A DNA stretch of 10,263 nucleotides from assembly GCA_017408625.1 (NCBI GenBank), contig JAFQUG010000071.1, forward strand, positions 1-10,263. The letters are read 5' to 3'. The position numbers and the translations under genes are program-made. The notes under the pieces were generated by a model that was given only the letters and a program-made list of their open reading frames with translations, did not search any database and had not been told where the DNA came from. This stretch comes from Clostridia bacterium. GTDB taxonomy: Bacteria > Bacillota_A > Clostridia > Oscillospirales > CAG-272. Position 1 is the stretch's first letter, and every line of letters begins with the position of its first letter. This document shows positions 2,242 through 3,750 of this stretch, piece after piece.

Positions 2242-2855
2242 CACAGCCCCCGTCGCATGCAGCCGCAGCACAGGTTTGCACATGCAAGAGCGGTGCAAAG
2301 ATGGCAGCAGTTACAGCCGGTATTGATGCTGGTGGTCTGTCTGCCAAAGGCGTCCGCATTCTGGTCAAAGCGAGATCTTGCCGCACGGTATTCCGCGTTA
2401 TGCGGCTCCATACCGCATGCGATATCGAATTCCCGGCATGCATCGACACGTCTGCCCATGCGCACGTACACACAGCCGGTCAAGAAGTGCCACTCACCGC
2501 CGCGCTCCTTTTCGGGTACGGACTGCAAGAGCGTATAGGCGCGCTCTATCGCACCGTTGTTGATCAGATGGCGGATATCGGTATACAGTGCACTGCCCGT
2601 CGGACTACCCTCAGCACGGAAGCCGCCATAGCCATACGACTGGCCGCCACTCTGCTTTTTGCCGCTGCGAATGGCCTGTACCTCCTCGTAGGCGGCGTTG
2701 ATCTCCTTCATTTTCTGCTCCGCACTCGCCTGCAGCTCGGGCTTGCCCGCATATCTGTCGGGGTGATATTTACGCGCCAGCGCGCGGTAGGCTTTTTTGA
2801 TTTCGTCCTCGTCGGCATCCGGACTGATGCCGAGTATCTTATACGGATCATTCAT
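2241..2855 (-). CDS. J-domain protein with TPR-like middle and cysteine-rich tail
   Basis: Residues 2-65 form a J-domain with the invariant HPD tripeptide at 31-33, in KYHPDRY, and the helix II/III signature (EIKKAYRALARKYHPD). J-domains stimulate the ATPase of DnaK/Hsp70. It lacks the zinc fingers and C-terminal substrate domains of true DnaJ. A glycine-rich linker (about 66-85) leads to a helical, TPR-like part (about 92-165). The tail (181-199) holds eight cysteines in the pattern CxCCx2Cx4Cx3CCxC, likely to bind metal. The ATG at 2855 overlaps the end of the DUF5685 gene by 8 nt and has AAAGGAG 10 nt upstream. The stop overlaps the ATG of the next gene. It is a specialised co-chaperone; its client is unknown, but the gene order suggests one of the two operon partners. 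Confidence 0.88.
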   Translation of the reverse strand: MNDPYKILGISPDADEDEIKKAYRALARKYHPDRYAGKPELQASAEQKMKEINAAYEEVQAIRSGKKQSGGQSYGYGGFRAEGSPTGSALYTDIRHLINNGAIERAYTLLQSVPEKERGGEWHFLTGCVYVRMGRRVDACREFDIACGMEPHNAEYRAARSRFDQNADAFGRQTTSINTGCNCCHLCTALACANLCCGCMRRGL

Positions 2856-3750
2856 GCTCCGCGCTCTCCTTTACATTTTTACATTTCTGACAGTCTTTTC
2901 CCAAAAACAGCACCGCTCTTGCCTGCGCGGGCATTCCCAGGCGCAAAATATGATAGATCACGGCCTCCAGATCATCGCGGCCGTCAAAGTCGATCAGATC
3001 GGCCGCCGCCACGGCATCGGCAAGCTCGGCCGTCAACAGCGTATCCAGCGTTTTGCGCATCTCGGCCGAGAGCTCCTCTTCCCCGTACAGCGCGTAAAGC
3101 GCGTTGAATCTTCCCTTCTGCACGTCCTTTTCATAGTCCTCTGCGGCGTCCAGCAGGAACACCCATCTGCCCATACTGCTGCCAAGCTCGTGTAAAATCG
3201 CGCGCGTCTGCCTCTCTGTGCCACAGGACAGCAAATCTCCCATCATAGCGCCGAACGCATTGGCAGGGATATCCGCCGAGCCGTTTGCCTCTTTCTCGGC
3301 TAAAGCAAAGGCTTGCATGCCGTCCGCGGCAATGCGATCGATCTCGGGCATGCGCCTTTTGGCACGACGGCGCATATGGGCAAAATACGGCAACGCAAGA
3401 CGTGCGCGCAAGCGCGCCCATCCGCGCTCGTCCGCAATATCATCCTTGCATTTATGATAAGCAAGCGCGGCCATGATGCAGGCAACCGTCTCGGTCTCCT
3501 CGCAAGGCTTTAACACGTCAGCCTTGGTCAGCGGATGCAAAAAGCAACGCTTCTTTGTAAACTCGGGAGTCGTACCGCGTGCCGCCATGCGCAAAAGCAC
3601 CATGGCTGCTGCGTCGTAGCGCAAGGTCAGGCGAGAGCATTGCCCCGTGCATTTGCCCATCTGACGGCATAGCCCGCAATATGCGCCGCGATAGCACGCA
3701 AATTCGCGGATCTTCAGTTCCGGTTCAAGAATCCGGATATATCCAAACAC
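2848..3750 (-). CDS. DUF5685 family protein with aspartate-rich motifs like isoprenoid synthases
   Basis: A 300-residue, mostly alpha-helical soluble protein of unknown function. The opening MFGYIRILEPELKIREF and the following cysteines (19, 25, 28, 34, 38, including CGLCRQ) are the hallmark of DUF5685. Two acidic motifs stand out: DDIADE at 103-108 and DAAED at 201-205, followed by EKDVQKGRFN (207-216). They resemble the two magnesium-binding motifs of squalene and phytoene synthases (DxxxD and DxxED). A further CxxC is at 287-290. The start is GTG at 3750-3748, chosen because AAGGGGG lies 7 nt upstream and family members start with the same residues. It is the first gene of a three-gene operon with 8-nt and 1-nt overlaps. 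The family assignment is confident; enzymatic function is inference only. Confidence 0.85.
   Translation of the reverse strand: MFGYIRILEPELKIREFACYRGAYCGLCRQMGKCTGQCSRLTLRYDAAAMVLLRMAARGTTPEFTKKRCFLHPLTKADVLKPCEETETVACIMAALAYHKCKDDIADERGWARLRARLALPYFAHMRRRAKRRMPEIDRIAADGMQAFALAEKEANGSADIPANAFGAMMGDLLSCGTERQTRAILHELGSSMGRWVFLLDAAEDYEKDVQKGRFNALYALYGEEELSAEMRKTLDTLLTAELADAVAAADLIDFDGRDDLEAVIYHILRLGMPAQARAVLFLGKDCQKCKNVKESAEHE

Follow-up and report, generated by a model that had tools for sequence, protein, structure and literature searches.

The window analysed here, by which we mean the whole 10,263-nucleotide stretch of DNA from a Clostridia bacterium, carries a gene of the DUF5685 family at positions 2848..3750. 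The gene reads on the minus strand, a point missing from the first-pass annotation of this DNA, from a GTG codon at 3750 to 2848, and encodes a protein of 300 amino acids. A Pfam scan assigned residues 2-276 of this protein to DUF5685 (PF18937, E 5.8e-63), with no other family to E 1; the match scored 213.3 bits against a curated cut-off of 26.7 and covered positions 2-269 of the 272 in the profile. The NCBIfam scan gave no match to the protein and a PDB sequence search with it returned 0 matches. Mo25-like and EncC chains, brought up by a PDB search with a DUF5685 profile (A1), had E values of 0.12 or worse and were judged to be chance matches.

Directly 3′ of the DUF5685 gene, with a start overlapping the DUF5685 stop by 8 bases, lies a gene (2241..2855, minus strand) for a 204-amino-acid protein composed of a J domain (PF00226, E 1.6e-18) holding the HPD motif (as YHPD), a TPR-like part recognised by alignment with relatives, and a cysteine-rich C-terminal tail. 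As read from the sequence, the tail comprises the last 25 residues, GCNCCHLCTALACANLCCGCMRRGL, encoded at 2244..2318 (minus strand) and containing 8 cysteines. The J gene shares a TGATG overlap with a further gene at 1642..2241 (minus strand), the 199-amino-acid product of which is hydrophobic and, judged by eye, probably spans the membrane several times. The Pfam scan of this product gave no match. Its group occurs in 58 of the 111 loci that were compared (the window, 30 loci from a sample of 299 genomes and 80 further loci, the latter mostly from Lachnospiraceae by title), at position +2 of DUF5685 in 56. In profile comparisons, the 1642-2241 protein matched the +2 proteins of loci L160, L162 and L163 and the one of L155 with a probability of 89, and the DUF2232-like proteins of L156-L159 with a probability of 50, 30 shuffles scoring well below in both cases; these two sets of proteins gave no match to each other (profile probability 0.3). 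The hydrophobic group may be weakly related to DUF2232.

Upstream of DUF5685, dpaB-, dpaA- and cwlD-like genes follow each other in one run (3869-6026, minus strand), the dpaA- and cwlD-like products scoring under the NCBIfam cut-offs. A dpaA/dpaB pair also precedes DUF5685 in locus L023. A role in sporulation, suggested by these neighbours, was set aside: the dpaA/dpaB groups were seen in just 2 of the 111 loci (the window and L023), although the flanking sequence of many loci is limited to 1.5 kb, and DUF5685 also occurs in Actinobacteria. ATP-synthase-like neighbours, recognised by eye, were also set aside, as they recur in 5 and 4 loci only. A small membrane-like protein with a MYGRYG-type start and a C-terminal zinc ribbon is encoded in 22 of the 111 loci, at -1 (14) or +2 (8), for example at 3074-3496 of L001; no Pfam family matched it above cut-off. 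On the plus strand of the window, two large frames (6488-8818 and 8853-10262) may encode ComEC- and RadA-like proteins.

Conserved residues and predicted fold of DUF5685

Conservation was scored in an alignment of 194 DUF5685 members (75 database-found proteins, 110 frames from loci L001-L110 and 9 from L160-L168, some genes being present twice) reduced to 70 representatives under 60% identity, a set that includes one short broken copy from L161. This copy (G136, L161 5281-5751) contains an in-frame TGA and is perhaps decaying, or reflects an assembly error. Residues D103, G194, D201, D205, D209 and N216 are identical in 70/70 representatives, and E152 is found in 69. The first acidic motif, DDIADE (residues 103-108; 3427..3444, minus strand), lies at the C-terminal end of a helix spanning residues 84-107; here D107 is kept in 68 of the 70, D104 in 52 and E108 in 46, as is K100 in 46. 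The second motif opens the conserved stretch DAAEDYEKDVQKGRFN (residues 201-216; 3103..3150, minus strand), which carries D201-x3-D205-x3-D209 and, further on, N216.

The first-pass annotation had pointed to DDIADE at 103-108 and DAAED at 201-205, spaced by 98 residues, as the two aspartate motifs of squalene/phytoene synthase-like enzymes, and had stated that other DUF5685 proteins keep both. Translation bears out the positions and the spacing, with YEKDVQKGRFN following the second motif, and the 70-representative alignment bears out the statement on other members. The description of the second motif needs amending. DxxED is present in the window, but since D201, D205 and D209 are identical in all representatives, the motif is D-x3-D-x3-D rather than DxxED, the invariant form being the DxxxD of D205..D209 (DYEKD) plus D201. 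Similarly, the GR noted after the motif does occur, at 213-214, but it is conserved only in part (G 46/70, R 32/70), the invariant residue in this region being N216.

A cysteine hallmark had escaped the first-pass annotation. It consists of C25-x-x-C28 (3667..3678, minus strand), within the sequence YCGLC, and of C69-x-x-H72 (3535..3546, minus strand), situated in a beta hairpin between helices 45-58 and 84-107; these residues are putative metal ligands. C25, C28 and C69 are each found in 69 of the 70 representatives, the miss being a gap in one row, while G26 is kept in 68, Y24 in 65 and H72 in 55.

Structure prediction followed by a structural search, the check proposed in the first-pass annotation, yielded the class I isoprenoid-synthase fold for two distant DUF5685 members, with class I isoprenoid synthases among the matches listed. 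The two acidic motifs are kept as in the class I superfamily (D103, D201, D205 and D209 throughout, D107 with two exceptions). Together, the models and the motifs support the earlier suggestion of a diverged class I isoprenoid-synthase fold, which DUF5685 very probably adopts. Judging from the fold and from the positions of the motifs at helix ends, the acidic residues would face one cavity and bind Mg2+-diphosphate.

Assignment to a family within the superfamily is less direct. The structural matches listed for DUF5685 are head-to-tail synthases, and no squalene/phytoene synthase is among the best 50 listed. An hmmscan to E 1 revealed no match in the DUF5685 protein of the window to PF00494 (squalene/phytoene synthases), to PF00348 (trans-polyprenyl synthases) or to protein prenyltransferase families, and the second DDxxD of the PF00348 type is replaced by D-A-x-x-D, position 202 being alanine in 64/70 representatives. 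In profile-profile comparison, DUF5685 (profile A3) matched squalene/phytoene synthases (A6, 14 sequences) in the motif-2 region only, with a probability of 62, E 7e-5 and a score of 40.9; 0 of 60 column shuffles reached this score (maximum 20.4) and the reversed profile scored 12.6. Against trans-prenyl synthases (A5, 23 sequences), A3 gave a probability of 3.7 and a score of 26.2, also reached by 0 of 60 shuffles (maximum 21.1). A more diverse DUF5685 profile (A2) matched weakly with either (probability 5.6 with A5 and 7.5 with A6). The profiles of the sister families PF00348 and PF00494 matched each other with a probability of 37. The spacing of D201, D205 and D209 equals that of N-x3-D-x3-D in the PF00494 alignment A6 (N164, D168 and D172 of L137); terpene synthases have an N-x3-S-x3-E triad with the same spacing. 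Because motif 2 points, in its sequence, towards PF00494 but the listed folds are those of head-to-tail synthases, we assign DUF5685 to the superfamily and not to either family. PF10776, presumably the YtpB-type, large-terpene synthases, was rejected as a sister family: the A3 comparison was at noise (17 of 60 shuffles reached it) and the A2 comparison weak (1 of 60), by a control that is itself weak, one shuffle per run (A3, A2) having scored about 133, an artefact.

The cysteine-rich tail across loci and lineages

A script recognised a J protein in 102 of the 111 loci, always downstream of DUF5685 and encoded on its strand; two additional loci, L022 and L074, were found by eye or from the frame list. 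Measured from the longest frame, the gap between DUF5685 and the J gene has a median of -4 bases in the 102 loci and exceeds 150 bases in 2 (L043 and L067). In these two and in L074, another gene (one gene called in L074) and more than 1 kb separate DUF5685 from the J-tail gene. At least 4 cysteines are found in the last 45 residues of 100 of the 102 J proteins, the exceptions (L041 and L098) running into a contig end, and cysteine makes up 15.8% of the tails as against 0.34% of the remainder of the proteins. The last cysteine is final or penultimate in 81 of the 102, giving ends such as CSCM, CSCI and ISCC; at least 3 residues follow it in the other 21, 2 of which are cut off by contig ends. 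In Clostridia the tails have a rather hydrophobic composition, most of them ending in cysteine.

When the 111 loci were reduced to lineages under 50% identity, all 23 lineages obtained combined DUF5685 with a cysteine-rich C-terminal tail, carried by a J protein, by another small protein or by DUF5685 itself. The carrier is a J protein in 16 lineages, and also in L022; in L007 and L013 the tail directly follows the J domain, the TPR part being absent. L030 encodes a 123-amino-acid TPR-like protein devoid of a J domain and ending in CCECMGGDFISCC, and L025 a 116-amino-acid protein ending in CCECMGGDIIECC. A small cysteine-tail protein belongs to a cluster with prenyl-synthase-like and DUF2232-like genes in L026, L027 and L029 (longer loci L156, L157 and L159), and to a similar cluster in L028 (longer locus L158); in these prenyl-synthase clusters the tail gene lies kilobases away from DUF5685, on the opposite strand. 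In L024 the tail is on DUF5685 itself. With L028 and the two contig-end cases, 111/111 loci are accounted for. Fusion of the tail to DUF5685 is the rule in the long members listed: among 120 proteins, the 111 with at least 330 amino acids all have 7-18 cysteines within a 40-residue window of the last 100 residues. By the same measure the count is 2 in the other 9, which are shorter and, where named, come from Firmicutes/Bacillota. The named long members are Actinobacteria, including Streptomyces, Nonomuraea, Nocardia and Mycobacterium. Many Streptomyces tails (P0242-P0361) consist of a hydrophobic cysteine segment (AGCAVWAGLACTCQMCC-like) followed by an acidic, cysteine-dense end.

Several controls bear on the specificity of the pairing. 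A profile of the TPR and tail region (A8, built from 14 sequences) was searched in the 299 genomes; its 21 matches better than E 1e-20 fall without exception in the 33 genomes carrying DUF5685, none being in the 266 genomes that lack it (Fisher p 3.8e-24). In 59 other genomes, some of which carry DUF5685, A8 matches at E up to 0.001 were all worse than 1e-8 and most stopped before the tail part; at eight such weak loci (L205-L212) no matching frame had a tail of this kind, the one of L206 ending in a zinc-ribbon-like cysteine stretch. A DNA signature of CECMGGD was detected in 9 of the 299 genomes, each time at a DUF5685 locus, and the reversed pattern in 0 of 299. Among the J proteins of 16 genomes, a comparison that left out one locus lacking a J frame and four matches lacking a locus, the tail is present in 8/8 that adjoin DUF5685 and in 0/21 others. 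Finally, of 823 other neighbour frames of at least 100 amino acids, 12 have at least 5 cysteines among their last 45 residues. Half of the 12 are zinc ribbons belonging to one family, and in 2 a cysteine is among the last two residues, one of these being the L030 tail protein itself. The association of DUF5685 with a cysteine tail is almost certainly real. It is well supported that the tail, and not the protein that carries it, is the constant partner of DUF5685, in a near-obligate pairing newly described here.

The longer loci revealed further neighbours. In L156, Pfam confirmed two Hsp70 proteins together with one PF00348 and one DUF2232 protein; L158 has PF00348 and DUF2232 proteins and an Hsp70-like frame seen by eye, L159 two Hsp70-like frames seen by eye and a PF00348-like protein recognised by alignment, and L157 a fragment of PF00348 and a DUF2232 match below threshold, with no Hsp70 seen. 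In L154, PF00348 adjoins DUF5685. The Hsp70-type genes, one or two per cluster and about 510 amino acids in product length, lie at L156 2685-6495, L158 675-2228 and L159 2366-6145; Pfam confirmation is limited to L156, where the match ends at profile position 509-516 of 599. The PF00348-type proteins (L154 9117-10061, L156 6498-7640, L159 6145-7167 and L134, the L158 gene) keep the first DDxxD and have N-D-x-x-N in place of the second; from their sequences, they form a diverged subfamily that may be inactive or serve as a partner subunit.

Possible functions of the pair

Computation thus provides a predicted fold for two distant DUF5685 members, invariant acidic motifs, an invariant cysteine site and a near-obligate tail partner. 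We propose, giving the whole mechanism a probability of roughly one in three, that DUF5685 is a metal-dependent prenyl-diphosphate enzyme that prenylates the tail cysteines, thereby sending a J, TPR or Hsp70 partner to the membrane. The acidic motifs would bind an allylic prenyl diphosphate via Mg2+ and ionise it. The acceptor would be a tail cysteine, perhaps activated at a thiolate-metal site formed by the Cys3(+His) residues in the N-terminal part of DUF5685, and the resulting S-prenyl group would place the partner at the membrane. In Clostridia, the tail carrier would be the J-domain protein made from the next, usually overlapping gene. We take the tail for the acceptor because a peptide rich in nucleophiles is the sole constant companion of a fold predicted to handle prenyl diphosphates, and because some branches have prenyl synthase genes in the same cluster.

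A number of observations speak against prenylation of the tail. R40, the sole candidate seen for an IPP-binding arginine, is not conserved, being arginine in 45 of the 70 representatives and glutamine in 20. A strict CaaX-type end had to be rejected, as no single CaaX-like end is conserved and the tails vary in length and pattern. A gene intervenes in L043, L067 and L074, and the tail gene is distant and on the opposite strand in the prenyl-synthase clusters. No tail gene was found within 11 kb of the broken G136 copy, which is not one of the 111 loci. Moreover, tails so rich in cysteine could bind metal instead, and a metal-handling pair is the strongest rival to tail prenylation. Under this explanation, a serious contender if an unlikely one, Zn, Cu or Fe(-S) ions would pass between the Cys3(+His) site and the tail, the J protein would recruit Hsp70 in the manner of HscB, and the fold would be a scaffold only. 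The near-invariance of C25, C28 and C69, the tails of the long members, mainly from Actinobacteria, with up to 18 cysteines per 40 residues, and the J or Hsp70 partners all fit such a role, which leaves the invariance of D103, D201, D205, D209 and N216 unexplained and does not sit well with Clostridia tails that are rather hydrophobic and mostly end in cysteine.

The same complete acidic motifs, the fold and the PF00494 motif register, along with the PF00348 gene adjoining some DUF5685 members, would suit a conventional synthase of small prenyl or terpene molecules that acts by coupling or cyclisation, with the cysteine tail merely an anchor or a metal reservoir. We regard this as rather unlikely. 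No terpene gene was recognised, by eye and from the first residues, among the 30 commonest neighbour groups, and the constancy of the tail rather than of its carrier is left unexplained. Also against it, the 15 of 298 sampled genomes in which PF00494 was detected include none of the DUF5685 genomes, which number 33 among 299 sampled from the phylum of the nearest genome. Direct searches of 11 DUF5685 genomes likewise gave no PF00494. PF00348 was present in 15/15 genomes searched. We regard as quite improbable a role without catalysis, in which DUF5685 would bind a lipid or a lipid-modified tail as an assembly or targeting factor, after the model of NDUFAF6, reportedly an SQS/PSY-like assembly factor: the operon shared with J-protein and membrane-protein genes and the variability of R40 agree with it, but pseudo-enzymes usually lose motif residues and D103, D201, D205 and D209 are retained in every representative. 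A likeness to isoprenoid synthases due to a common all-helical arrangement, with no true relation, is most improbable.

Returning to tail prenylation, its furthest extension would be a dedicated bacterial protein S-prenylation system, in which DUF5685 with its thiolate-metal site prenylates tails and J, Hsp70 or TPR proteins (in Actinobacteria, DUF5685 itself) become membrane-bound, a counterpart of farnesylated Ydj1 or of cysteine-string protein achieved by an unrelated enzyme fold; this we consider doubtful. In the literature covered, which takes in few subscription journals and includes PMC9403866 and PMC8669142, the matches listed contain no description of the DUF5685 family or of the tail pairing. 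The sole paper found to name DUF5685, in the part available, merely lists the family. DUF5685 and its cysteine-tail partner suggest an unrecognised protein-modification or metal-handling system, in a family that is widespread (the 33/299 sampled genomes, plus Actinobacteria). The isoprenoid-synthase fold gives DUF5685 a concrete, testable chemistry, and the near-obligate tail partner supplies a definite candidate for its substrate. Should the tail be prenylated, bacteria would have a protein-prenylation enzyme of their own; if it is not, the pair would be a new Hsp70-system module for handling metal or lipid. To our knowledge, the isoprenoid-synthase fold does not prenylate proteins, and the known protein prenyltransferases have another fold.

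Comparison with known systems

A precedent for an unusual acceptor is offered by MoeN5, the prenyltransferase of moenomycin synthesis, which reportedly transfers a prenyl group to a non-standard acceptor, a phosphoglycolipid and not a protein; we know of no cysteine site or cysteine tail in this system. MoeN5 (PDB 5b02, 6j8v) has a class I fold like that of DUF5685 and is among the structural matches listed. The trans-polyprenyl diphosphate synthases of PF00348 (e.g. PDB 4jxy, 3wjk, 2ftz) have a second DDxxD, in which DUF5685 has alanine (A202) for the second aspartate; by reading, the DUF5685 protein of the window also lacks their GGKR motif, and DUF5685 adds to the synthase plan the Cys3(+His) site, the hairpin and the cysteine-tail partner. 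The squalene/phytoene synthases of PF00494 resemble DUF5685 at the motifs, their F-C-R-x-x-D-D-x-V-D-E resembling Y-x-K-x-x-D-D-x-x-D-E of DUF5685 at motif 1, and N-x3-D-x3-D..R-x-Y-x-P resembling D-x3-D-x3-D..GRYNP at motif 2. Compared with PF00494, DUF5685 has about 18 residues fewer between the motifs (103 to 205 versus 48 to 168 in L137) and about 55 residues more ahead of motif 1.

On the side of the partner, the nearest parallels are eukaryotic. Ydj1, which is farnesylated, and the cysteine-string protein DNAJC5 are J proteins whose cysteine-containing C-terminal part is lipid-modified, the enzymes being protein farnesyltransferase and palmitoyltransferases. A J domain and C-terminal cysteines are common to these proteins and to the bacterial J-tail protein, the tail of which, we hypothesise, may carry a lipid as well.
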